Positions 1,412 to 32,176 of a stretch of 38,297 nt of DNA are shown here, piece by piece (the stretch's first letter is position 1; every line of letters starts with the position of its first letter). Origin of the DNA: an uncultured Acidimicrobiales bacterium (lineage in GTDB: Bacteria > Actinomycetota > Acidimicrobiia > Acidimicrobiales > UBA10347); assembly GCA_938015575.1 (NCBI GenBank), contig CALLPT010000279.1:1-38297 (forward strand), written 5' to 3'. The position numbers and the translations under genes were made by a program. Below the pieces are notes generated by a model, which saw nothing but the letters and a program-made list of their open reading frames with translations, had not been told where the DNA came from and did not search any database.

Positions 1412-3263
1412 TCACGACACCGACGCCGCGGCGACGCAGAAGCAAAAGAAGACCGGGTTCCTGGCGTCGATTGACGGCACCTTGCTCGTGCGCTTCGCTG
1501 CGCTCGCGCTCATTACCTCGTTGGTCCTCGGCGGACTCGTCTTCATGGCTATGCGGTCGCTGTCCGCCACGGCCGACGACGCCCTTGCCAACGCTCGCGA
1601 AAGCCTCAGCGACGAAGGCATCGCTTCCGTCCAGGCCCTCACCGACCAAGTCGCCTCGACCTCGTCACAGCTCACGATGTTCATCGGGGCAGTCGTCGCC
1701 GTTGGGCTGATCCTTGCCGTGGTTCTGGCCCGTGCCACCGTCAAGCGAGTGACTGCTCCCATGGTGGAGCTACGCGACGCGGCACGAGCAACGTCGGGTT
1801 CGCTCCCGGCCTTTGTTCAAGCCTGCGAAGCGGGCAATGGTGTTCCCACGCTCCCGACCGTGGACATCGCGTCCGGCGGCATCGCCGGTGACATCGCGGC
1901 TTCGTTCAACGAAATGCAGCGCAACGCGGCAAATTTGGCCGTCACCGAAACATTCCGTCGTACACGCGACGGCGGACGCTTTGTCCAGCTTGGCCGCAAC
2001 ACCGAACTCCTGCTGAATGAGCAGATGCGCTTCATCGAAACAATGGAGCATGACGAGACAAGCGCAGAAAACCTTCAACGCCTGTTCCGAGTCGATCACT
2101 TGGCAAGCCGGATGCGTCGCTATGCCGCTTCGATGCTGGTGCTCGCCGACAGCGATACGCCTCGCCAGTTCAGTCGCCCGGTCTCGATCCACCAGGTTGT
2201 CCAAGCAGCGAGCAGCGGCATCGAGCATTTCGAGCGGGTCTCCATGCCCGATCTGTCGGGAGTCGCGGTCAATGGTGCAATCGCCGCCGACCTCGCTCAC
2301 CTGCTCGCCGAGGTGCTCGAGATCGCCACGGTGCGTTCGCCGGATACACGCACCGAGGTCAGCGGTCACGCGACGTCGGATGGCTTCACCGTTGCGATCT
2401 CCGATCCTGGTTCACCACTCGATCCCAACGAGATCGGGGCGATCAACCGGGTCCTGGCCGACCGCCACACCGCCGATGCGACGCCGACCACGTCGATGAC
2501 CCATGCGGTGATGGCGCGGCTTGCAAACCGCCATGACCTTCGCGTTGAACTCGCGGCCGGCGACGAGGGCATCACGACGCTGATTCATCTCCCCCAGATC
2601 GCACTCGCTCGCATGAGCGGGACCGAAGCGACCCCCGCCTCTCCATCACCCGAGCGGGCCGCGTCAGCGTCCTTGCCTGAACAGGAACACGCGAACCATC
2701 TCGACGAGTCAGCTGGCGCTTCGTCGTCCGAAGCCGCCGGTGCGTCGCTCGCCGCCGAGTTCGTGACCGAACCCGCGCCGGCAGCGGCTGAAGCTCCGCC
2801 GGTCGCCGACGTCGTCGACCGTGTCGAAGCGTCTGACCCTGGGGTCGAGACCTTTCACGAAGCAGCTACACCCGAGCCATCGGTCGAGCTGCACGAGACC
2901 GATGCGCCGGCGCCGTATCAGCCACCCGAGTCGATCATCGACCCAGCCACCAACGCCGCATTCGAAGCCATGGTTGCCGCCGTCGCTGATCCCACAAGCC
3001 ACCGGTCGACCGAACCTGCAGGTTCGCCCGCGCTCCAAACCGAGGCGACCACGCCGGTAGCTTCGTCGGGCCTTGCCGATATCGAGGCCGACAATCTGGC
3101 AGAACGGTGGCGGGTGCTCGCGAGCGGTCAACGCGCCGCAATCGAGTGGGCCATGGATGTCGACAACCGCGGCCCCGCACCGGCCTCCCCGACCCTGCGT
3201 CCGGGGCCGGTGAGCGCAGCGGCGCTCGCCGAGTTCGACGCAACGTCACCCGACGAGGAATGA
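1404..3263 (+). CDS. conservon CvnA-like membrane sensor kinase homologue with degenerate ATPase domain
   Basis: A 619-residue protein starting at the ATG that overlaps the previous stop. Two membrane segments (about 26-50 and 90-109) bracket a short external loop, followed by a HAMP-like stretch. A dimerisation region around 205-256 (NTELLLNEQMRFIE, then LFRVDHLASRMRR) closely matches the His-containing helix of Streptomyces conservon kinases. The ATPase-like domain follows, but its N-box reads HLLAEVLEIAT where the family has ELLENAT, the G1 box reads DPGSPLD instead of DxGxGM, and a GLGL-type G2 is absent. It may therefore not bind or hydrolyse ATP. From about residue 420 there is a long Ala/Pro/Glu-rich linker and a final conserved-looking tail with LAERWRVLA. 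The family assignment is strong; signalling without phosphorylation is inference. Confidence 0.85.
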   Translation: MSDHDTDAAATQKQKKTGFLASIDGTLLVRFAALALITSLVLGGLVFMAMRSLSATADDALANARESLSDEGIASVQALTDQVASTSSQLTMFIGAVVAVGLILAVVLARATVKRVTAPMVELRDAARATSGSLPAFVQACEAGNGVPTLPTVDIASGGIAGDIAASFNEMQRNAANLAVTETFRRTRDGGRFVQLGRNTELLLNEQMRFIETMEHDETSAENLQRLFRVDHLASRMRRYAASMLVLADSDTPRQFSRPVSIHQVVQAASSGIEHFERVSMPDLSGVAVNGAIAADLAHLLAEVLEIATVRSPDTRTEVSGHATSDGFTVAISDPGSPLDPNEIGAINRVLADRHTADATPTTSMTHAVMARLANRHDLRVELAAGDEGITTLIHLPQIALARMSGTEATPASPSPERAASASLPEQEHANHLDESAGASSSEAAGASLAAEFVTEPAPAAAEAPPVADVVDRVEASDPGVETFHEAATPEPSVELHETDAPAPYQPPESIIDPATNAAFEAMVAAVADPTSHRSTEPAGSPALQTEATTPVASSGLADIEADNLAERWRVLASGQRAAIEWAMDVDNRGPAPASPTLRPGPVSAAALAEFDATSPDEE

Positions 3264-3320
3264 GCCTGGCCGTGTCTTGCGTGTTCGACCGCACCGGTCC
3301 CCGACCAAGAGAGGAATCGC

Positions 3321-3671
3321 ATGTTCAGCGAAGCTGACCTCGCCGCAGGCGACGCCTCGTTCGTGCGGCCGTTCGTCATCACGCAGGGTCGTACGGTTGG
3401 CGAAGCGGGCGACATCCCGCTCGAGACCCTGGTCGTTGCTCGTGCCGACGCAGAAGGACTCGCGCCCGACCACGCGGCTGTCGTCACCGCGTGTTCCGGC
3501 GACCCCGTATCGGTCATGGAAATCGCGATGCACCTCGACCTGCAGATCGGCGTTGCCCGAGTCCTGGTCGCCGATCTCACGGCGAGCGGACATGTCGAGC
3601 AATACGACACCGCCGGGTCCGAGAGCGCAGCGATCGTCAAACGTCTGCTCGACGGCTTGCGATCTCTTTAG
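3321..3671 (+). CDS. DUF742 family protein (CvnC-like)
   Basis: A 116-residue protein with the features of DUF742: VRPFVITQGRT near the N terminus, then IPLETLVVA, a helix-turn-helix-like core (VSVMEIAMHLDLQIGVARVLVADL) and a C-terminal LLDGLRSL helix. GAGAGGA lies about 8 bases before the ATG. DUF742 proteins (CvnC) are encoded with a sensor kinase, a roadblock protein (CvnB) and a GTPase (CvnD) in actinobacterial conservons, where they form a membrane-associated switch complex. Here the gene follows the kinase by 57 bases and ends the operon. No roadblock gene is seen in the window; it may lie upstream of base 1. Confidence 0.85.
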   Translation: MFSEADLAAGDASFVRPFVITQGRTVGEAGDIPLETLVVARADAEGLAPDHAAVVTACSGDPVSVMEIAMHLDLQIGVARVLVADLTASGHVEQYDTAGSESAAIVKRLLDGLRSL

Positions 3672-3688
3672 TCTCCGTCAGAGCGCCG

Positions 3689-3722
3689 GCGCCTCATTCC
3701 AGCGCGCCTGCGCCTCATTCCA
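3689..3722. repeat. direct repeat between convergent genes
   Basis: GCGCCTCATTCCA occurs at 3689-3701 and again at 3710-3722 (period 21) in the 69-base gap between the convergent DUF742 and hemL genes. The first copy is preceded by the palindrome GCGCCGGCGC. No clear stem-loop with a T-run is visible; the function is unknown. Confidence 0.6.
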
Positions 3723-3740
3723 ATGGGCTCTGGCTGGGTC

Positions 3741-5015
3741 CTAGGCCATGAGCGCGGCGACTTCGGCGGCCGCCGCGATCGTGGCGTCGATGACCTCGTC
3801 GGTGTGGACCGTCGACACAAAGATCGCCTCGTACGGTCCCGGCGCGAGCGCGACACCGCGTTCGAGCATCCCGTGGAAGAAGGTCGTGTACTTGCCGTTG
3901 TCCGCAGCCACCGAGGCTTCGTCGAAGTTCGTGGGCGCGGTGTCGGTAAAGAAGATGCCGAGCAAGGACCCAACCCGCGGAACGATCACATCGACGCCGG
4001 CTTCGGCGAACACGGTCTCGAGACCGGTCGCCAGGCGAATTGCCGTGGCCTCGAGTTTGGCGTAGGCAGCGTCGGTCAGCTGCTCGAGCATCGCCAAACC
4101 GGCGGCCGTTGCGAGCGGGTTCCCGCTCAACGTGCCGCCTTGGTAGACGCCGCCGAGCGGAGCGATGCTGCTCATGATCTCTTTGGAAGCGCCATACGCG
4201 CCGACCGGCAAGCCGCCACCGATGACCTTGCCGAAACACCAGACGTCGGGCTTGACCCCGAACCATTCGCTCGCGCCGCCTCGACCGAGTCGGAACCCCG
4301 TGATGACCTCGTCGAAGAGCAGCATGGCACCGACCTTGTCGCAGGCTTCTCGCAGGCCTTGCAGGAATCCCGGCGCCGGAGGAACCACGCCCATGTTCGC
4401 AGCGACAGGTTCGACCGCAACGACGGCGACGGTCTCGTCGAGTTCGGGAACAATGTTGTACGGGGCGACGATCGTGTTGGCGACGGCACCGTCAGGAACC
4501 CCGTCGCAACCACTGAGTCCCTGATTCGCGACCCCGCTTCCGCCAGCAGCGAGCAGGTTGTCGCTGTGGCCGTGATAGTTGCCTGCGAACTTGATCACGT
4601 TGTCTCGCCCGGTCGCGCCACGGGCGAGGCGCAGCGCGGACATGGCGGCTTCGGTCCCGCTCGAGACCAGCCGGAGCATCTCGAGACCGGGCACTCGGGC
4701 GCACATTTCTTCGGCCATCAGGACTTCGCGTTCGGTGGGCGCGCCGTAGCTCGTGCCGTGTCCGGCAGCGACCGAGACTGCGTCGACAATCTGTGGGTTG
4801 GCGTGGCCGAGCATGCAGGGCCCGTAGCTGAGGACGTAGTCGATATAGCGCTTGCCCTCGACATCCCACACGTAAGGACCCTCGGCCGTGTGCACGAAGT
4901 ACGGCGTGCCGCCAACCGAGCGAAACGAACGCACCGGCGAATTCACACCGCCAGGCATCACTTCCTTGGCCCGCTCGAAGAGATCTGCGTTCATTTGCCC
5001 AGTGGGTTGTGCCAC
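3741..5015 (-). CDS. hemL: glutamate-1-semialdehyde 2,1-aminomutase
   Basis: Converts glutamate-1-semialdehyde to 5-aminolevulinate with pyridoxal/pyridoxamine phosphate, the last step of the C5 route whose first committed enzyme (HemA) is also in this cluster. The 424-residue length is normal. Family signatures seen are ERAKEVMPGGVNSPVR at the N terminus, SSGTEAAMSALRLAR for cofactor binding, NYHGHSD, FDEVITGFRLGRGG, and the Schiff-base lysine in CFGKVIGGGLPVG (about Lys263). The listed start is GTG; an ATG seven codons further in (4994) is equally possible because neither has a clear ribosome site. It is the last gene of the rex-hemA-hemC-hemD-hemL block and follows hemD by 65 bases. hemB and hemE are not in the window. 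Confidence 0.97.
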   Translation of the reverse strand: MAQPTGQMNADLFERAKEVMPGGVNSPVRSFRSVGGTPYFVHTAEGPYVWDVEGKRYIDYVLSYGPCMLGHANPQIVDAVSVAAGHGTSYGAPTEREVLMAEEMCARVPGLEMLRLVSSGTEAAMSALRLARGATGRDNVIKFAGNYHGHSDNLLAAGGSGVANQGLSGCDGVPDGAVANTIVAPYNIVPELDETVAVVAVEPVAANMGVVPPAPGFLQGLREACDKVGAMLLFDEVITGFRLGRGGASEWFGVKPDVWCFGKVIGGGLPVGAYGASKEIMSSIAPLGGVYQGGTLSGNPLATAAGLAMLEQLTDAAYAKLEATAIRLATGLETVFAEAGVDVIVPRVGSLLGIFFTDTAPTNFDEASVAADNGKYTTFFHGMLERGVALAPGPYEAIFVSTVHTDEVIDATIAAAAEVAALMA

Positions 5016-5080
5016 GGCCGCAGTCTACGGGCCACTGCCCGACTGCTCATCGTTCGGACGTGTTCGTCGCGGCGATGCGC

Positions 5081-5845
5081 TCAGCGGTCGGGGCCGCGAG
5101 ACCGGGCCCAGTCAATGACAGCGTCGACAAGCCCGGTGAGCGTATGTGGTTCTGCTTCGGCGTCGACGGGTACGTCGAGCGATCGCGCCGTTTCGCTCGT
5201 GAGCGGTCCGATGCTGATCACGGCGGGCGGAAGCGACCGGCGGCCGACGAGACGTACGAAACGCTCGACCGTCGATGACGAGGTAAAGGTGATCACGTCG
5301 GCGGCTCGGGCCGCCGCGGCCGCTTCCGGCGTGACGTCGCCGTCGACCGTGCGATACGCGATCACCCGGTGCACGTCCCATCCGTGCCGGCCAAGGCCCT
5401 TCGCGAGCGCGTCGCGGGCGATCTCGGCTTGGGCAAGCAACAGCCTGGCGCCTGCATGGGGTGCAGCGCCGATGGCCTCGACCAGCCCTTCGGCGAGATT
5501 GCGGTCCGGGACGATGTCGACTCGCAGTGGGCTATCCGCGAGCACCGCGGCCGTGCTCGGTCCAACGCAGGCGATCGGGGCACTCGGCCACACATCGATC
5601 CGTTCGCAGGCGGCGAGCAACGAACGCGCCCCATTGGGTGACGACACGGCGATGCGCCGATAGTCGTCATGGTTCGTGACCGCCGCGTCGAGCGCGCCAC
5701 CCCCATCGGCCGGAGGCTCGATCGCAATCGTCGTGATCTCGACCGTGGTCGCACCGAGCTCGTGGAACCGATCGGACAGCGACGACGCCTGGCCAGCGCT
5801 ACGGGTGACGACGATCGAGAGCCCCTGGAGCGGCGGCGTCGACAT
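5081..5845 (-). CDS. hemD: uroporphyrinogen-III synthase
   Basis: Cyclises hydroxymethylbilane to uroporphyrinogen III with inversion of ring D. The 254-residue protein begins LQGLSIVVTRSAGQ with the usual HemD N-terminal pattern and shows the scattered conserved sites of this divergent family: VSSPNGARSLL, CVGPSTAAVL, and near the end VITFTSSSTVERFV and ISIGPLTSETA. The ATG chosen lies only 5 bases past the hemC stop, which fits coupled translation; upstream in-frame codons lie inside hemC and read as low-complexity Arg/Ala, so a longer protein is rejected. HemD is poorly conserved in sequence, but the context makes the call secure. Confidence 0.93.
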   Translation of the reverse strand: MSTPPLQGLSIVVTRSAGQASSLSDRFHELGATTVEITTIAIEPPADGGGALDAAVTNHDDYRRIAVSSPNGARSLLAACERIDVWPSAPIACVGPSTAAVLADSPLRVDIVPDRNLAEGLVEAIGAAPHAGARLLLAQAEIARDALAKGLGRHGWDVHRVIAYRTVDGDVTPEAAAAARAADVITFTSSSTVERFVRLVGRRSLPPAVISIGPLTSETARSLDVPVDAEAEPHTLTGLVDAVIDWARSRGPDR

Positions 5846-21777: not shown

Positions 21778-22188
21778 TCAGTTCGCGCAGCTGGCGCAGA
21801 TGCCCGAAAACAACACGTCGAGGCGTCGCAGCTCGAAGCCCGGCATCGAGGCCGGCACTTGGGGCTCATCGTCGGAGCGCAACTGGATGTCTTGCACCAT
21901 GCCGCACGACTCGCACAAGGCGTGATGATGACGATCGGTGACGTTCGGGTCGTACTTGCGTGAGCGGCCAGCGACGTGGAGCTCGCCAACTTCGCCCATC
22001 TCGACGAGCTCGTTGAGCGTGTTGTACACGGTTGCCCGACTGGTCTCGGGCAGTTCATCGCGGACCCGGTCAAGCACTTCGTCGGCACTCAGATGGACAT
22101 TCTCACCGCGGAGCGCGTCGACGACCGCCCGCCGTTGCGGGGTGAGTCGCCAGTCGCGGCGCTCGAGCCGCTGGAGAAGGTCGTCCAT
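21778..22188 (-). CDS. Fur family metal-dependent transcriptional regulator
   Basis: 136 residues: an N-terminal winged helix (RLTPQRRAVVDAL, LSADEVLDRVRDELPETSRATVYNTLNELVEMGEV) and a C-terminal dimerisation domain with the metal site HHHALCESCG and a second CxxC (ICASCAN), giving the four-Cys structural zinc. Fur, Zur and PerR cannot be separated confidently; HHHALCESC is shared by all three. It precedes the His-rich lipoprotein by 17 bases, consistent with metal-controlled expression of that gene. The ATG at 22188 follows CATGACACGG without a strong ribosome site. No clear Fur box was found in the short upstream gap. Confidence 0.92.
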   Translation of the reverse strand: MDDLLQRLERRDWRLTPQRRAVVDALRGENVHLSADEVLDRVRDELPETSRATVYNTLNELVEMGEVGELHVAGRSRKYDPNVTDRHHHALCESCGMVQDIQLRSDDEPQVPASMPGFELRRLDVLFSGICASCAN

Positions 22189-22257: not shown

Positions 22258-23148
22258 TCAATCCTGTTCGCCTCGGCGACGGCGGCCGGCGACTTGGAGC
22301 ACACCACCGAACATCAGCATCAGCGTGGACAGCAGCACCAACAGCCGCGATGACGACCCGGTGATCACCAGCTCGAGCACCTCGTCTGGTTCGTCCTCGG
22401 GTTCGACGGGATCCGAGAACGGACCGGGGTATTCGATACCGGTGGGTGGTGTCGGAGGCGGCGGCGGAACCACTGTCAAGGTGGTCGCGTCGTCGCGGTT
22501 GTTGGTCAGGTCCGGGTCGGGAGTGTTCGAGCTGACCTCGGCTTCGTTGGTGAGATCGATGCCGTCGCCCGCGTCGGGCGCCACGAGCACCGTGTACGCC
22601 AACGTGATCTGCTCGCCCACCAGCAACGGGCTGGCCTTGGTACAGCTGAAGCCGGTCGTACTTGCCGCCTCGTCGATGGCGTCGACGACGAAGGTGGCAC
22701 AAGCCCACCCTTCGACCGCAGGCAGGGTCGCGTAGCTGAGCTCGGGCGCCAGCGTGTCCGTGACGAAGACGTCGACCGCGGCATCAGGGCCGAGGTTGGT
22801 GACCGTCAGGGTGTAGGCGAGCTCAGATCCGGGCTCAACCGCAGCTTCGGTGTCGGTCGCCTTCACGATCGACAAATCGGCTCGCAGCGGGGTGACGCGT
22901 GCCGAGTCATCGTCGGCGATCACGGGCGGGTCCGAGAACGGCTCGCCCTCATCGTCGAGCGGCAGGCCCTCGACCGTCGCCAGGTTTTCGATCGCTTCGT
23001 CGATGACGCTGACCGCAGTGACCGTGACCGAGGCGTCCGGCGCAAGCAGCTGCGCGTCGGCCGGGATCGCGAGGACCAGACCGAGTTGGTCATCGACGAT
23101 CTCGGTGACCTGCAGGTCGACATTGCCGATGTTGGTGACGGTGAAGCA
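22258..23148 (-). pseudogene. severed C-terminal part of the giant DUF11 surface protein (after in-frame TGA)
   Basis: The frame continues without any shift directly after the TGA at 23149-23151, beginning CFTVTNIGNVDLQVTEIV. It holds the remainder of the eleventh repeat, one classical DUF11 domain (LRADLSIVKATDTEAAVEPG ... YTLTVTNLGPDA), a Pro-rich spacer and a wall-sorting-type end: LVITG, a hydrophobic helix (LLVLLSTLMLMFGGVLQVA) and the tail RRRRGEQD. Internal starts exist (for example Met at 22923), but there is no ribosome site and no signal peptide, so independent function is unlikely. With the upstream part it forms a gene of about 2030 codons. It could be read through, be a real truncation, or be a sequencing error. 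Confidence 0.8.
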
Positions 23149-26100
23149 TCAGGTCACACTCGCGCCGGCGTTGACTTCGAGGTCATCGATCGCGGTGCCA
23201 CAGTCGGCGTCGGCGCCAGCAGCGACGAGCTTCACCAAGCGGATACCAGCTTCGTCGACCGCAGCGTCGTTCTGGTCGCTGACCGGGTCGAGGTCGCCGA
23301 GCGGGTTGCCGGCCGCATCGGACGGCGTGGCGACGATCGACGACAAGCTGACGACGCCGTCCTGCGGGATCGCACCGTCGCTACTGAAACGGATCGAAGC
23401 GCCTGGCGGCAGGGACAGGCCGCCGTTGCCGTGGTCGGCCAAGACGTCGACCTCGACGAGACCGAGCGGCGGATCGTCGAAGACGAGATCGGTGAGCGAC
23501 GTGTTGCCGGTGTTCGAGACCTCGAAGCACCACCGCACCCCATCACCAACCGCGCCGAGCACGAACTCGTCGACCGACTCGACCGCGTCGTTGCAGCTCT
23601 CATTGATCGGAACCACGGTGTTCGTAAGTGTGATGCTCGGGATCAGCTGCTCGGTGGCGACGATCTGGGCCGAGTCCTCGGCGTTCACCGAACCCTCGGG
23701 GCCTTGTCCCGAGGCCACGGCAGTATTGATGAGTGGCGTGGCTTCGGTGACCGTGACGTCGTAGGTCGTGTCAAAGGTTGCGCCCGCCGCAAGATCGCCG
23801 ACAACGATCTCGGCATCGGCTTGCGGGTCGTTGATGACGACATTGGTTGCCGCACCATCGCCGACGTTGCGGACCGAGATGCAATAGGTGACCGCGTCGG
23901 TGACCATGACCTCGAGGCCCGGACCGATCCCGACCACTCCATCGTCGAAGCTCGGACAGGTCCCCGCGGGGCCTTCGATCGCCGTCTTGACAATCGACAG
24001 CTGGGGCACGAGCACCGGCGATGCGTCGATACGGGCCAGATCGGTGTCCGCGTCGACGGGACCGTTCGGACCGTCGCCGGTGACCATGGCGATGTTTACG
24101 GCCGGCGTGTCCTCGTCGACGACAACGTCATAGACCAAGGTTGCCTCTTGGCCGGGTGAGAGCTCACCGATCGCGCCGTCGAAGCCCTCGGGGGCATGAC
24201 TGTCGATCACGGCAACGTTCGTCGCGGCGCCGAGTCCGTTGTTGCGCACTGACAGGCAGTAGGTGACGGTCTCGCCGAACAGCACTTCGAGGGCCGCGCC
24301 GACTCCTTCGACGCCGTCTTCGAATGCAGGACACACGCCGCCTGGCCCGGCGATCACGGTCTTGACGATGTCGAGCACCGGCTCGGGCAGCGGCGACGAA
24401 GAGATCTGCGCAGTGTCGGAATCTCCGGGCACGGGCCCGTTCGGGCCGTTGCCGCTGACAAGCGCGGTGTTGACCTCGGGGGTTGCCGGGCCGATGGTCA
24501 GATCGAACGAGCGCGTGGCTTCGGCACCGACGACCAGGGTCCCTACCGCGCCATCGAACGTGCCTGGGGCCTGCACGTCGCGGATCACGACGTCGGTGGC
24601 CGTGTTCAGACCCTCGTTGATGACCGAGATGCAATACGTGACGGTCTGGCCATAGAGCACGGCCAACGCGGGACCGACGCCCTGGATCCCGTTGTCATAG
24701 GTCGGGCACGACCCGTTCGGGCCGAGCACCACGGTCTTGATGATCTCCAAGCGGGGCTCGGGTGCGAGGGCGGGCTGGATCGCCGCTTGATCCGAGTCGG
24801 GAGCGACCGGGCCGTTCGGGCCTTCGCCGTCAACCCGCGCGGTATTGAGCACCGGGGTCTGCTCGTCGACCAACTTGTCGAAGCTCAACGTGCGTTCCGA
24901 TGCAACGCCGAGGTCCCCGATGAACCCGTCGAATCCGGCCGGCGCTTGAATGTCGGAGATCACCACGTTGGTGGCAGCGGACAGGCCACCGTTGAAGATC
25001 GAGAGGCAGTAGGTCACCGTTGTGTCGAAAAGCACGGCGAGCGCCGGCCCAACGCCCTGGACCCCTTGCTCATAGCCGGGGCAGACACCATTCGGGCCGG
25101 GGACGACCGTCTTGACGATGTCGAGTATCGGGTCAGGCTGGGGCGAGGACACGATGCGGGCCTGGTCGGTGTCGCCGGGAACCGCACCGTTTGGTCCGAC
25201 ACCGCTCACGGTGGCGGTGTTGACTTCTGGGGTCGCCGCGTCGATGACGAGATCGAACGAGCGGACGGCTTCGGCGCCGACGGCCAGGTCGCCGACCGCC
25301 CCGTCGAACCCGACCGGGGCCTGCGGATCCGAGATCAACACACCCGTTGCATCGGTACCTGCGTCGTTACGCACATTCAAGCAATACGTCACGGTGTCAC
25401 CGAACAACACCGGTAACGCAACGCCAAGCCCATCCACACCATCAGCGACCGACGCGGGACAAGTGCCACCCGGACCAACGACAACCGTCTTCACGATCTG
25501 CAATACCGGATCCGGCTGCGGCATCGGATCAATGACCGCCTGATCACTGTCACCAGGGACGGGACCGTTCGGGCCCGAGCCGCCCACACCTGCGGTATTG
25601 ATTTCTGGGGTCGTCGCGTCGACCGCGAGGTCGAAGGATCGAACCGCTTCGGCGCCGACGGCCAGGTCGCCGACCGCCCCATCGAACCCGACCGGGGCCT
25701 GCGGATCCGAGATCAGCACACCGGTTGCATCGGTACCTGCGTCGTTACGCACATTCAAGCAATACGTCACGGTGTCACCGAACAACACCGGTAACGCAAC
25801 ACCAAGGCCATCCACACCGTCGGCAACCGACGCCGGGCACGTGCCACCCGGACCAACGACAACCGTCTTCACAATCTGCAACACCGGATCCGGCTGCGGC
25901 ATCGGATCAATCACCGCCTGATCACTGTCGGCGGGGACCGGACCGTTCGGACCCGAGCCATTCACGACTGCGGTGTTCAACGCCGGCGTTGCCGCATCGA
26001 CCTCCAGGTCGTAGCTCAGCGTTCGCTCCTGGCCGACGGGAATCGTGCCGAGGTCACCGTCGAAGCCCACGGGCGCTTGGGCGTCGGTCACGACCACATT

Positions 26101-28350
26101 GGTCGCATCGGAGCCACTTTGGTTCATGACCGAGATGCAATAGGTCACGGTCTCGCCGTAAACGACCGCCAGCGCAGCACCTGCGCCGATGACACCATCG
26201 GCAAACGCGGGGCAGGCCCCAGCGGGACCGGCGATCGCGGTCTTGACAATCGCGAGTGCCGGATCGGGCCGAGCCGACACATCGATGAGCGCGTCGTCGG
26301 TGTCGGGAGCAACGGCACCGTAGGGCCCGTCACCGGTAACCGTGGCGGTGTTGAGGGGCGGCGTGAGCAGCGTGACCGTCAGATCAAAGACGAGTGGCCC
26401 GGCATCGCCACCCGCGGCGAGCGTGCCGATCGTGCCATCGAAGGCGGCCGGAGCCTGCGGATCGGTCACGACGACATTGCTTGCATCGCCAGCGCCGCTA
26501 TTGCGCACCGACAGGCAGTACGTGACGGTGTCGCCCTCTTCGACGGCCAATGCAGTACCGGCGCCCACGATCCCGTCGTCGAAGTCGGGGCAGACGCCGT
26601 TCGGTCCGGGCACGACCGTCTTGACGATGGACAGCTCGGGGACCGGCAACGGGGCGATCGCGATGACGGCGGTGTCACTCACCGATGGCAGCGCGCCGTT
26701 CGGGCCGTCGCCGGTGGCCGTCGCTGTGTTGGTCGACGGCGTGTTCAGGTCGACGACGAGGTCGTACGCGAAGGTCTGCTCGCTTTGCCCCGCGAGTGTT
26801 CCAACCGCAATCGCTCCGTCGGGGTTCTGCGAATCCGAGATGACCACGTTGGTAGCGCTAAAGGTTGCGGGGTTGGCGACGCTGATGCAGTACGTGACCG
26901 TGTCTTGGTCGGTGACGTTGAGCGTGGGCCCGTCGCCGACGATGCCGCCCGCGAAGTCGGGGCACGCCCCGTTGGGACCAGCCACGACGGTCTTCACGAT
27001 TTCGAGGTCGGCGGGAGGGCAGGGGAAGACGACTTCGGTGACGTCATCGACGCCGCCGATGCCGTTGTCGTTGCCGGGCGCAGGGTTGAGTCCGTCGTCG
27101 GACTGGTCACTGACGGCGACGTTGGCCGCCGTCGCAGTGACGGTCGCCTGGTTCAGGTACGTGTACCCGTTGGCGCAGTCGCTCCAAGCCACCTGGGCGA
27201 GGTCAGGCGTGTACTGCAGCTCGAGCGTGATCAGCTCGTCGGTCTCGGCCGTGAGCGATGCACCGCCCGCCAACAGGTTGGTATCGCCAATGCCGTCGTA
27301 GCTCGGGTTGAGCGGAAGAATCCCAGCCGGGTTCGAGACCCGCACGATCGAAATGTCGGAAAAGGCCGAGTCGGCCAAGGGCTCCACCAGTTGCAGGTCG
27401 CGCAACGGAATGCCTTCGGGGGCGCCGCTGAGGAAATCGGCGGGGGCGTTTGCCTGCGCGGCGAGGATCGCGGCCGCGACGGTTGAACCCGACGGAAGAT
27501 TGTTCCGGACCCGAAGCTCAAAGGTGACGTCGAAGCTGGAGCCGTTCCATGTTGGTCCCGCGGCCAGGACTTTCGCGGCGCCCGCAGCCTCGCAGCCACC
27601 ACCGACAGCAAAGCCGGACTGCCCGCTGCCGACGTCGCGCTGCATGCTGATGCCGGTGACCGCGCCGAGCATGTCGACCTGCACCCGGCCGCCGATGTCC
27701 TGCGAATCGAGTCCGACCGTGTCGGTGTCGTTGAAGGCCGCTTGCACATTGGAGCTGCCATCGAACTCGAAGCTCGGATCGCCGGCGAAGATCGCGATCT
27801 GGGCGTCGGGGTCGGTCCAGGCCGGGGTGACGAAGAAGCCTTCGTTCTGGCGATCGACATCGGTGAACACCCATTGGCTGTAGAACAGCGGTGCCGACAG
27901 CGTCACGGTCGCTTCGTCGCCCGCTGCCATCTCGACGCCCTTGGGCTGGTCGTTCGCGACGCCCTCGCCACCGGCGGGGAAGAAGCCGGGGTACTGGCCT
28001 CCGGGGTCACCTTCGGCGGTGATCTCGAAATCCATGGTGATGCCGTCGGTGGTGACCGAGGCGTTGGGCGTGCCAGCAACATCGATGCGCCCGATCGGGC
28101 TCACGTTCTCGGGGAACGGATCAAAATAGGTCGGACTCTCGCAGTAGGGCACCGGGTTCGGGGCCGGACCGAAATAGGCCGGTCCGGTCGCGCCCGTCTG
28201 GGGACCGCTGTAGGGAGGTCCTTGGGCCTCGGCAACCGAGCCGCCGACGTTGGCCGCACCAAGAAGCGCGGCCAACAGTGCAACCACGGCCAGCACGACC
28301 AGGTGTGGCTGCAAACGGCCACGCCACTGCTGAGCAGTCGACTTCCTCAT
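23149..28350 (-). CDS. giant DUF11-repeat surface protein, truncated by in-frame TGA
   Basis: 1733 residues from an ATG preceded by GGAGGG. A signal peptide (Arg-rich start, hydrophobic LVVLAVVALLAALLGAA, cleavage near AEA) leads into a unique N-terminal domain of about 400 residues (GPPYSGP, GPAYFGPAPNPVPYCE, FDPFPENVSPIGRIDV ...) almost identical to the upstream paralogue. Nine repeats of about 126 residues follow, starting IVKT.V.GP.G.CP and containing VTYC.SV.N, N.ATNVV..D and TA...G.GPNG; these are DUF11/Ig-like modules. Repeats 4 and 5 are identical over about 90 residues. Two variant repeats come next; the last stops at TGA where its relatives have Trp (RWCF, IWCY). The truncated protein lacks the wall anchor and would be released. 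Probably a stalk-like surface or adhesion protein; the binding target is unknown. Confidence 0.88.
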   Translation of the reverse strand: MRKSTAQQWRGRLQPHLVVLAVVALLAALLGAANVGGSVAEAQGPPYSGPQTGATGPAYFGPAPNPVPYCESPTYFDPFPENVSPIGRIDVAGTPNASVTTDGITMDFEITAEGDPGGQYPGFFPAGGEGVANDQPKGVEMAAGDEATVTLSAPLFYSQWVFTDVDRQNEGFFVTPAWTDPDAQIAIFAGDPSFEFDGSSNVQAAFNDTDTVGLDSQDIGGRVQVDMLGAVTGISMQRDVGSGQSGFAVGGGCEAAGAAKVLAAGPTWNGSSFDVTFELRVRNNLPSGSTVAAAILAAQANAPADFLSGAPEGIPLRDLQLVEPLADSAFSDISIVRVSNPAGILPLNPSYDGIGDTNLLAGGASLTAETDELITLELQYTPDLAQVAWSDCANGYTYLNQATVTATAANVAVSDQSDDGLNPAPGNDNGIGGVDDVTEVVFPCPPADLEIVKTVVAGPNGACPDFAGGIVGDGPTLNVTDQDTVTYCISVANPATFSATNVVISDSQNPDGAIAVGTLAGQSEQTFAYDLVVDLNTPSTNTATATGDGPNGALPSVSDTAVIAIAPLPVPELSIVKTVVPGPNGVCPDFDDGIVGAGTALAVEEGDTVTYCLSVRNSGAGDASNVVVTDPQAPAAFDGTIGTLAAGGDAGPLVFDLTVTLLTPPLNTATVTGDGPYGAVAPDTDDALIDVSARPDPALAIVKTAIAGPAGACPAFADGVIGAGAALAVVYGETVTYCISVMNQSGSDATNVVVTDAQAPVGFDGDLGTIPVGQERTLSYDLEVDAATPALNTAVVNGSGPNGPVPADSDQAVIDPMPQPDPVLQIVKTVVVGPGGTCPASVADGVDGLGVALPVLFGDTVTYCLNVRNDAGTDATGVLISDPQAPVGFDGAVGDLAVGAEAVRSFDLAVDATTPEINTAGVGGSGPNGPVPGDSDQAVIDPMPQPDPVLQIVKTVVVGPGGTCPASVADGVDGLGVALPVLFGDTVTYCLNVRNDAGTDATGVLISDPQAPVGFDGAVGDLAVGAEAVRSFDLVIDAATPEVNTATVSGVGPNGAVPGDTDQARIVSSPQPDPILDIVKTVVPGPNGVCPGYEQGVQGVGPALAVLFDTTVTYCLSIFNGGLSAATNVVISDIQAPAGFDGFIGDLGVASERTLSFDKLVDEQTPVLNTARVDGEGPNGPVAPDSDQAAIQPALAPEPRLEIIKTVVLGPNGSCPTYDNGIQGVGPALAVLYGQTVTYCISVINEGLNTATDVVIRDVQAPGTFDGAVGTLVVGAEATRSFDLTIGPATPEVNTALVSGNGPNGPVPGDSDTAQISSSPLPEPVLDIVKTVIAGPGGVCPAFEDGVEGVGAALEVLFGETVTYCLSVRNNGLGAATNVAVIDSHAPEGFDGAIGELSPGQEATLVYDVVVDEDTPAVNIAMVTGDGPNGPVDADTDLARIDASPVLVPQLSIVKTAIEGPAGTCPSFDDGVVGIGPGLEVMVTDAVTYCISVRNVGDGAATNVVINDPQADAEIVVGDLAAGATFDTTYDVTVTEATPLINTAVASGQGPEGSVNAEDSAQIVATEQLIPSITLTNTVVPINESCNDAVESVDEFVLGAVGDGVRWCFEVSNTGNTSLTDLVFDDPPLGLVEVDVLADHGNGGLSLPPGASIRFSSDGAIPQDGVVSLSSIVATPSDAAGNPLGDLDPVSDQNDAAVDEAGIRLVKLVAAGADADCGTAIDDLEVNAGASVT
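25271..25928 (-). repeat. recent 378-base tandem duplication inside the DUF11 gene
   Basis: The stretch 25271-25550 recurs at 25649-25928, offset by exactly 378 bases (126 codons). By eye only about a dozen bases differ and these are synonymous over some 90 codons, so the encoded repeat is the same. The other repeats in the gene are far less alike at DNA level. This marks recent duplication or gene conversion with selection on the protein. Confidence 0.85.
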
Positions 28351-28444: not shown

Positions 28445-28496
28445 CCGTTTCGGCCACGGTGGGTGCTCGGGACACCTAGCACCGTGACCGAAACGG
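28445..28496 (-). terminator. long stem-loop between the two DUF11 paralogues
   Basis: Seventeen-base arms at 28445-28461 and 28480-28496 (CCGTTTCGGCCACGGTG against CACCGTGACCGAAACGG) pair with one mismatch; the loop contains a further GGTG/CACC. It starts 17 bases past the stop of the upstream paralogue and lies about 95 bases before the start of the next, so the paralogues are probably separate transcripts. Only short T-runs follow on the minus strand. Confidence 0.7.
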
Positions 28497-28512: not shown

Positions 28513-31500
28513 TTACTCGTCGTCGCGAGCGCGGCGTGCGCCGATGGCGAGCATCCCACCCAGGGTCAGCAGGGCCGCGGCCAGACTCACGAAGAGCGAT
28601 GACTGCGAACCGGTGATCGCCAATGGCGGATTCGGCACCGGAATCGACGCGGGTTCCTCGGGCGTGAACGGCCCGGGGTATTCGGGGCGAAGCGGCACGG
28701 TCACTGGTGGCGCTTCGCGCGTCGTGAGGTCGGTGTCCTCGTTGTCGGTCGGATCGGGATCCGACGTCGTCGTTGAGACGGTGGCCGTATTGACGAGGTC
28801 GATGAGGATCTCGGCTGCCGAGGTCACGATGGCGTTATACGTCAGCGTCTCGGAAGCACCGGCTGGCAAAGCAGCGCCGCGAGCACACTGCAGCTCGGTC
28901 GAGCTGACCTCGGTGCAGGCCCAACCAGCGGTGTCCGGCACGTTCATCAGCGCCAGACCGGCCGGAAGCTGGTCGACGACAACCACGTTCTCGGCGGCAT
29001 CGGGGCCGGCGTTCGCGACGACCAACGTGTAGGTCAGCACCATGCCGACGGGAACCGGACCCTGATCGCTCACTGCCTTGGTGATGCTGACGTCAGCGAG
29101 CAATTCGTCGACGCCCGCGTCGTTGTCATCTTGGACCGGGGCGACGTTGGCGATCAGCGTGCCGTCTGGTTCGGATGCCTCGCCGACCACGGTCGCCGTG
29201 CTGGCGAGGCCGCCGACCGGGATCGTGCCGTCGACCTGGAAGGTCACAACCTGGCCGACCGCGAGCGACGCGATGCCGTTGGCGTAGGTGGCCAAGAGGT
29301 CGATGTCGGCAATGCCGACCGGGGCGTCGTCCACGATCACGTTGGCGAGCGGTGTGTTGCCGTCGTTGGTCACGACGTAGCACCAGATGACAGGGTCGCC
29401 CGCGTTTGCGACGACAGAGTCATCAATGACGTCTTGGGTCGAGGCGCAGTCGCCGCCAGCGGGAACGACGGTCTTGATGATCGTGACCGACGGAGCGGGC
29501 GCTGCGACATCGATGATGGCGGTGTCGGTGACCGGTCCCACGGGGCCGTCTGGACCTTGACCGGTCGCCGTTGCCGTGTTCTGGGCAGCGGTGTCTGATT
29601 CGACGACCACGTCGTAGGACGACGATGCCTCGCCGCCAGCCGCGATGGTGCCGAGATCGATCGGCGCCGGCGCCATTGGGTCGTTGACCGTCACCATGGT
29701 GGCGGCTGCGTTGCCGCTGTTCTGCACGGACACGCAATAGGTGACGATGTCACCAATGTTGACGGCCAGAGCGGTGCCGTCACCGACGACGCCACCGGCG
29801 AAGTCAGGACAAACGCCATTGGGGCCGGCGACGACGGTCTTCACGATCGCAAGGATCGGCGCAGGGGCCTCGCTCACATCGACGAGCGCGGTGTCGGTAA
29901 CCGGACCGACGGGTCCGTTCGGGCCGTCGCCGGATGCTGCAGCGGTGTTGGCGATCTGGCCGACGCTGTCGACGACGAGGTCGAAGCTCAGGGTTGGAGC
30001 TGTGGTACCGGCAGCGAGATTGCCGATCGTTCCGTCGAAGCTGGCGGGTGCGATCGGGTCGGAGACAACCACATTGGTGGCATTGCCTGCACCGGTGTTA
30101 CGGACCGAGATGCAATAGGTGACGGTGTCACCCACGTTGGCCGCAAGCGGTGCACCGTCACCGGCAACGCCGCCAGCGAAGTCGGGGCACGTGCCGCCAG
30201 GACCGGCAACAACCGTCTTGACGATCTCGAGCACCGGGTCCGGCAGGGCCGAGATGGTGATGAGCGCGGTGTCGGTGACCGGGCCGATTGGACCGTTCGG
30301 TCCGTCGCCGCTCGCCGAGGCGGTGTTCTGCAGTGGCGTCACACCCTCGGCCACGACCACGTCGAAGCTGAGGGCTGGAGCCTCTGCTCCGGCGGCGAGG
30401 TCGCCGATCGCGCCGTCGAAGCCGGCGGGCGCCATGGGATCGGACACGACCACGTTGGTCGCATCGCCGGCGCCGGTGTTACGGACCGAGATGCAATAGG
30501 TGACGGTGTCACCATCGGAAACTGCGAGGGCCGCACCATCGCCGGCGACACCGCCAGCGAAGTCGGGGCACGCGCCGCCCGGACCGGCAACGACCGTCTT
30601 GACGATGTCGAGCGCTGGGTCATCGAGCGGTGGACAGTCGAAGGTGACGACGGTCGGGTCATCGTTGCCGCCGGCACCGTTGTCGACGCCAGGGTCGGGG
30701 TCGACACCCTCGTCGGACAGGTCGGTGACGTCGACGCCGCTGGCCGAACCGGCAACGAGTGCCGAGTTCAGCAGGTTGTAGCCGGCAGCACAGGTTGCGC
30801 CGAGCGCGCCTGCTGCGTCAGGCGTGTACTCGAGGACGAGGACGAATTCTTCTTCGGACTCAGGCGGGACAATCTCGCCCGGGGCGATCAGGTCGGTGTC
30901 GAGGACACCGTCATAGGTGTCGTTGACCATGATGTTGCCACTGGTGTTCGTCAGCGAGGCAACGGTGACCGACGAGAACGCCGGGTCAGTCAACACATCG
31001 GTGAGCTGGATGTTCGTCATGTCGATGCCGGTGGGGGTGCCGACCGAGGTGCCGCTTGCGGCGGCGAGGAGTGCGGCGTTGACATCAGCGGTGAGGGTCG
31101 CCGTCGAGGGGAGGTTGTTGCGAACTCGCAAGGTGTAGGTCACGTCGTAGCCCGCGCCGTTCCAGGTCGGACCCGAGGTGACCTCTTTGGCGACACCGAT
31201 CGGCGAGCAACCACCGCCGACCGCGAAGCCGGACTGGCCGCTGCCGGTGTCGCGGACGATGGTGAGGCTGTCAACTGCTCCCAGGAAGTCGACTTGGACA
31301 CGGCCATTGAGCGATTCGCTCGGGTGGCCGACCTGGTCGAGGTCGTTGAACTGGGCCAGGTTGACCGTGGTCCCGGTGAAGTCGAACTCGGTATCGCCGC
31401 CGAACACTGCGACCTGTCCGGGCGTGCCGGGATCGGTCCAGGCCGGGGTGACGTCGAAGCCTTCGTTCGAGCGGTCGACGTCGGTGAACACCCATTGGGT

Positions 31501-31953
31501 GTAGAAGAGTGGTTCCGAGAGCGTGATCGTCGCCGCGTCGTCGCTGGCCATCTCGACGCCCTTGGGCTGATCGCCTGGGCCTCCGTCAGCGCCTTCGGGG
31601 AAGAAGCCGGGGTACTGGGTACCAGGCGAACCCTCGGCGGTGAGCTCGAACTCCATCGTGATGCCGTCGGTGGTCACCGATGCGTTCGGCGAGCCGGTGA
31701 CGTCGATCCGGCCGATCGGGTTCACATTCTCGGGGAACGGGTCGAAGTAGGTCGGTGTCTCGCAGTACGGGACCGGGTTCGGGGCGGGACCAAAATAGGC
31801 CGGTCCGGTCGCTTCGGTCATCGGCCCGCTGTAGGGCGGTCCTGCCGCATCAGCAGCGGTGCCGAGCTGCAACGTGGCAGCCACGATCGCCAGGACCGCA
31901 GTAAGGACAATCGCAAGCTTGGTGTGTCGGCTTGCAGGGCGCGTCGAACGCAT
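28513..31953 (-). CDS. DUF11-repeat cell-wall-anchored surface protein (intact paralogue)
   Basis: 1146 residues from an ATG with GGAGGAG 7 bases upstream. A signal peptide (KLAIVLTAVLAIVAATLQL, cleavage near ADA) precedes the same ~400-residue N-terminal domain as the downstream paralogue. Then come three IVKT-type repeats of about 125 residues (from about residue 443), one variant repeat with VIWCYVVTNDGN, and one classical DUF11 repeat (LADVSITKAVSDQGPVPVG ... GPDAAENVVVVDQLP). The C terminus has LAITG, a hydrophobic helix (LFVSLAAALLTLGGMLAIG) and ARRARDDE, matching the LAxTG signal of class E sortases, so the protein is probably attached to peptidoglycan. No sortase gene is in the window. 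Likely a surface stalk or adhesin; the ligand is unknown. Confidence 0.9.
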   Translation of the reverse strand: MRSTRPASRHTKLAIVLTAVLAIVAATLQLGTAADAAGPPYSGPMTEATGPAYFGPAPNPVPYCETPTYFDPFPENVNPIGRIDVTGSPNASVTTDGITMEFELTAEGSPGTQYPGFFPEGADGGPGDQPKGVEMASDDAATITLSEPLFYTQWVFTDVDRSNEGFDVTPAWTDPGTPGQVAVFGGDTEFDFTGTTVNLAQFNDLDQVGHPSESLNGRVQVDFLGAVDSLTIVRDTGSGQSGFAVGGGCSPIGVAKEVTSGPTWNGAGYDVTYTLRVRNNLPSTATLTADVNAALLAAASGTSVGTPTGIDMTNIQLTDVLTDPAFSSVTVASLTNTSGNIMVNDTYDGVLDTDLIAPGEIVPPESEEEFVLVLEYTPDAAGALGATCAAGYNLLNSALVAGSASGVDVTDLSDEGVDPDPGVDNGAGGNDDPTVVTFDCPPLDDPALDIVKTVVAGPGGACPDFAGGVAGDGAALAVSDGDTVTYCISVRNTGAGDATNVVVSDPMAPAGFDGAIGDLAAGAEAPALSFDVVVAEGVTPLQNTASASGDGPNGPIGPVTDTALITISALPDPVLEIVKTVVAGPGGTCPDFAGGVAGDGAPLAANVGDTVTYCISVRNTGAGNATNVVVSDPIAPASFDGTIGNLAAGTTAPTLSFDLVVDSVGQIANTAAASGDGPNGPVGPVTDTALVDVSEAPAPILAIVKTVVAGPNGVCPDFAGGVVGDGTALAVNIGDIVTYCVSVQNSGNAAATMVTVNDPMAPAPIDLGTIAAGGEASSSYDVVVESDTAAQNTATATGQGPDGPVGPVTDTAIIDVAAPAPSVTIIKTVVPAGGDCASTQDVIDDSVVANAGDPVIWCYVVTNDGNTPLANVIVDDAPVGIADIDLLATYANGIASLAVGQVVTFQVDGTIPVGGLASTATVVGEASEPDGTLIANVAPVQDDNDAGVDELLADVSITKAVSDQGPVPVGMVLTYTLVVANAGPDAAENVVVVDQLPAGLALMNVPDTAGWACTEVSSTELQCARGAALPAGASETLTYNAIVTSAAEILIDLVNTATVSTTTSDPDPTDNEDTDLTTREAPPVTVPLRPEYPGPFTPEEPASIPVPNPPLAITGSQSSLFVSLAAALLTLGGMLAIGARRARDDE

Positions 31954-32176
31954 GTTGTTACTCCTCCCGAGCGCGCGACTGTCGCCGAGCGCACCGATCG
32001 CCAAGCCTAGGGATCGGATGGGTAGGTGACTAGGAAAACATCGGGTTTCTCCATGGGTAAATCAGCCCAGAAGAGTCCGGCTAGTTCACGCTGCCTAGCA
32101 GTGTCCACAGAAGGCAACAGAAGCCACTTTTGCCCCGAGCCGCCGGCTCTGAATCCGACACCATCAACCGTTAACC

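Follow-up and report, generated by a model that had tools for sequence, protein, structure and literature searches.

An in-frame TGA, probably a recent nonsense allele, in a DUF11-repeat surface-protein gene of an uncultured Acidimicrobiales bacterium

Surface proteins with DUF11 (PF01345) or DUF7507 (PF24346) repeats combine tandem repeats with a signal-peptide-like start and a C-terminal hydrophobic anchor followed by a basic tail. The gene described here shares all of these traits but differs in having an in-frame TGA ahead of its last DUF11 domain. Ordinary nonsense mutations and young pseudogenes in draft bacterial genomes offer the nearest comparison, since there too a single base separates sense from stop, the orthologue is intact and the defect is confined to one gene of one genome; unlike the ordinary young pseudogene, however, the interrupted gene has a tail that shows no decay at all. 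In known bacterial selenoproteins, selenocysteine (Sec) pairs with Cys and a SECIS element lies directly downstream (PMC1088965). Among the stop codons of E. coli, UGA leaks most; it is mainly Trp that is then inserted, and a T downstream favours termination (PMC11126739). Searches of the literature on read-through in DUF11 proteins and on premature stops in MAGs gave nothing of use.

The window (the whole stretch of DNA analysed, contig C279, 38,297 bases) comes from a draft genome, apparently a MAG, that comprises 393 contigs and 4.2 Mb and is 80% complete, and the region of the interrupted gene is present there as a single copy. The gene is flanked by an intact paralogue (28513-32004) on one side and a Fur-family gene (21778-22188) on the other. 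The relevant features are:

23149..28350, minus strand: ORF as far as the TGA, 1733 aa when counted from the probable ATG, with a signal-peptide-like segment, an N-terminal module and tandem repeats of ~125 aa of DUF11/DUF7507 type
23149..23151, minus strand: in-frame TGA, codon 1778 of the frame opening at 28482; TGG in the orthologue
22261..23148, minus strand: tail of 296 codons that continues the frame and is still subject to purifying selection
22483..22878, minus strand: DUF11 domain of the tail, 72 bits, over the cut-off
22285..22347, minus strand: hydrophobic C-terminal anchor segment, followed by RRRR
22258..22260, minus strand: natural terminator, TGA
23530..23532, minus strand: TGG (Trp) at the corresponding place in the sister repeat, within the motif RWCF
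28513..32004, minus strand: intact paralogue next to the gene, 1163 aa, with IWCY as the corresponding motif; served as selection control

The frame 28482->22258 on the minus strand reads TGA at codon 1778 (23151..23149, in the context GTG-ACC-TGA-TGC-TTC-ACC) and then, as the preliminary description had reported, continues for 296 sense codons. The next in-frame stop is TGA at 22260..22258, where the orthologue has TAA. The DUF11 domain and the anchor claimed for this continuation are borne out by a Pfam match at residues 1869-2000 and by the hydrophobic segment, which is followed by RRRR at the C-terminus. Translation probably starts at the ATG at 28350, which has GGAGG upstream and a signal-peptide-like hydrophobic segment downstream, and the product truncated at the TGA is 1733 aa when counted from there. 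The tail is a strongly constrained coding sequence, and its open frame is not a matter of chance.

The codon lost to the TGA had been described as a conserved Trp codon, on the strength of the sister repeat (RWCF, codons TGG TGC) and the adjacent paralogue (IWCY). Both equivalents were recovered, and the one-to-one orthologue, G004:C408, also has TGG at the site; strict conservation did not hold more widely, as the equivalent position in 27 distinct repeat modules of the genus was Tyr in 13 and Trp in 10, with Ile in two, Phe in one and the TGA in one. Nine upstream repeats of the interrupted gene itself read TYC there. Judging from these alignments, the position is aromatic without being confined to Trp. 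Two changes separate the Tyr codons from TGA, and with TGG in the orthologue a change from TGG to TGA would be the simplest origin; the single-base change to an anchor-less 1733-residue product that was originally proposed is supported, and the orthologue is intact. A Dcm-type deamination hot spot was considered as the source of this change and rejected. Dcm does not methylate the first C of the CCTGG motif, and a change from CCTGG to CCTGA alters the base opposite that C, so it is not the classic transition.

The closest orthologue found, G004:C408 (CALDGN010000408.1, from a MAG of an uncultured Acidimicrobiales bacterium of the same genus), aligns over positions 1775-5248 with the last 974 residues of the interrupted frame; its frame is open throughout, with no stop, and the tail is 78% identical. 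Named relatives were also sought by sequence: the tail by itself matched none, and the two-row alignment matched only this G004 contig. Nei-Gojobori dN/dS against this orthologue was 0.113 upstream of the TGA (676 codons) and 0.169 downstream (296 codons), with a 95% bootstrap interval of -0.009 to 0.137 for the difference, and it was 0.057 over the last 71 codons of the tail. The intact neighbouring paralogue, compared with its own G004 orthologue as a control, gave 0.123 upstream and 0.178 in its last 296 codons. The relaxation of constraint that marks an established pseudogene was therefore not seen after the TGA, as the tail value of 0.169 matches the 0.178 of the intact paralogue tail, and by this comparison constraint on the tail is at least as strong in the interrupted gene as in its intact sister. 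In a simple mixture model, the tail would have been free of constraint for about 1% of the branch since the split, with an upper bound of about 19%, a rough estimate that uses one orthologue and no close outgroup. Since no loss of constraint can be detected in the tail, the TGA should be either very young or not real. Among the matches listed in 36 genomes of the order, an internal stop occurs only at this site.

The recoding of UGA had to be considered, because the genus uses Sec. The source genome carries a tRNA-Sec with anticodon UCA (G000:C88), a SelB above the cut-off (G000:C68) and a fragment of formate dehydrogenase in which a single TGA stands in frame, as it does in four other genomes of the genus. 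In the source genome and three of the others, this TGA follows SCNRT and precedes a conserved hairpin with an apical GGUCU. The fragment of the source genome (L141, G000:C164, 1732-1791), together with L137, L139 and L140, belongs to a formate dehydrogenase alpha subunit reading SCNRT-U-HAPSVVG, with a SECIS-like GGUCU-loop hairpin. By these features the genus decodes UGA as selenocysteine in formate dehydrogenase, and any in-frame TGA in the genus must therefore be checked against this possibility.

The interrupted surface-protein gene resembles this selenoprotein in having an in-frame TGA in a genome that encodes tRNA-Sec and SelB, but unlike it has no Sec/Cys pair and no SECIS-like hairpin, and it does not encode a redox enzyme. 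Insertion of selenocysteine at 23149 would have the necessary machinery at hand, in a genome whose formate dehydrogenase has an in-frame UGA; against it, Trp or Tyr mostly stands at the homologous position in the 27 repeat modules and Cys in none, and no GGUCU-loop hairpin follows the site. The 47 bases downstream fold with -7.5 kcal/mol, compared with -13.8 to -18.7 at the four confirmed formate dehydrogenase Sec sites; a fifth folded sequence, L138, was left out of this comparison because it is not a Sec codon. Selenocysteine was accordingly rejected for this site, which fails on both Cys pairing and SECIS despite the Sec machinery, and we regard its probability as practically negligible. 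Reassignment of UGA to Trp, of the table 4 type, was likewise excluded, because the only tRNA-Trp detected in the 80% complete assembly has anticodon CCA and because TGA is a common terminator, ending 147 of 229 long ORFs.

In order to see how prone the assembly is to such interruptions, a codon model was run over 369 kb (about 9% of the assembly), scanning for stop codons that have in-frame coding sequence both before and after them; the model is imperfect, its top-ranked frame being the correct one in 1246 of 1708 training segments. It returned 59 same-frame candidates, most with a start codon close behind, and only six of these, the TGA at 23149 among them, lacked a start codon in the next 30 codons. 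The remaining five were rejected as interrupted genes: L116, L127 and L130 are ordinary gene boundaries by Pfam, L120 has near-zero margins in the codon model and L125 is a 15-bp tandem array. No other interrupted gene was thus supported by the codon model in 369 kb of this assembly, which argues that the assembly is not error-ridden. The array in L125 (G000:C21, 18361-18485) has 8.3 copies and lies just past a gene end, with FTQDY/FTQGY in one frame.

Four origins had been offered for the TGA, namely a nonsense mutation, a subpopulation switch, read-through and an error, and the comparison favours either a very young nonsense allele or an error while providing nothing for a switch or for programmed read-through. 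The explanation we favour, with some reserve, is a nonsense allele that arose recently through the change of one base, TGG to TGA, in a membrane-anchored DUF11-repeat surface-protein gene; it accounts for the sense codon and the open frame of the orthologue, and since the tail has not yet decayed the allele would be young or still polymorphic in the population. Translation would then mostly stop at the TGA and release a 1733-aa protein lacking the last DUF11 domain and the membrane anchor, which might be secreted or degraded, and basal misreading of UGA by tRNA-Trp could leave a trace of the full-length protein. The alternative, a TGG in the organism that the contig misstates through a consensus error or the calling of a minor variant, is less likely but has to be taken seriously. 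It would explain the tail without relaxed constraint equally well, as an undecayed tail implies a lesion that is either very young or an error, and the source is a fragmented draft MAG in which the base is seen once. The six genomes of the genus include no second conspecific one, so that the base is known from a single 80% complete MAG, and the pattern expected in the sequence is the same for a very young allele as for a consensus error. The scan of 369 kb speaks against frequent errors, although a single one is compatible with it. The case calls for caution: when only one draft genome is at hand, a conspicuous in-frame stop can resemble a switch or recoding, but comparison with one orthologue and with one pair of intact paralogues narrows it down to an error or a nonsense allele of very recent date.

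A functional leaky stop, at which near-cognate tRNA-Trp reads UGA often enough to yield both a secreted and an anchored form, appears unlikely. The tail is constrained, tRNA-Trp(CCA) is present, and UGA, as the leakiest stop in E. coli with mostly Trp inserted (PMC11126739), would restore the ancestral residue; yet the TGG of the orthologue means that no leaky stop is conserved, the base after the TGA is T, which favoured termination in the E. coli study (PMC11126739), and downstream structure is not significant, with the larger fold at the site not clearly better than shuffles (z = -1.17). Programmed read-through would call for a stop conserved in orthologues and a conserved downstream signal, and neither was found here, given the orthologue's TGG and the same z value. 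With T as the next base, only basal read-through is expected. Any read-through would nevertheless insert the ancestral residue, which might, with small probability, be why the allele is tolerated; that a leaky UGA at an ancestral Trp codon yields the giant surface protein in both released and anchored form, and that selection maintains this mixture in the population, seems very improbable. A regulated or selected truncation, in which a phase-variable or ecotype switch releases the surface protein, would fit the position of the stop, cleanly ahead of the last DUF11 domain and the anchor. It is nonetheless hard to credit, since the change is a substitution of one base, no sign of an invertible element, of slippage or of recombination was seen at the codon, the assembly contains no second allele, and the tail has not decayed.

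Several other giant DUF11 genes are found in the same assembly with unbroken frames, and giant DUF11-repeat frames of the genus, such as those in G000:C43 (4273 codons) and G004:C114 (4996 codons), are unbroken among the matches listed. Within the interrupted gene, two consecutive repeat units (residues ~868-993 and ~994-1119, at ~25126-25881 of the window, minus strand) are nearly identical, which suggests a recent tandem duplication or an assembly-sensitive repeat. The adjacent paralogue at 28513-32004 is about one repeat unit shorter than its G004 orthologue (L025, 3431-7333), and repeat number therefore differs between species.
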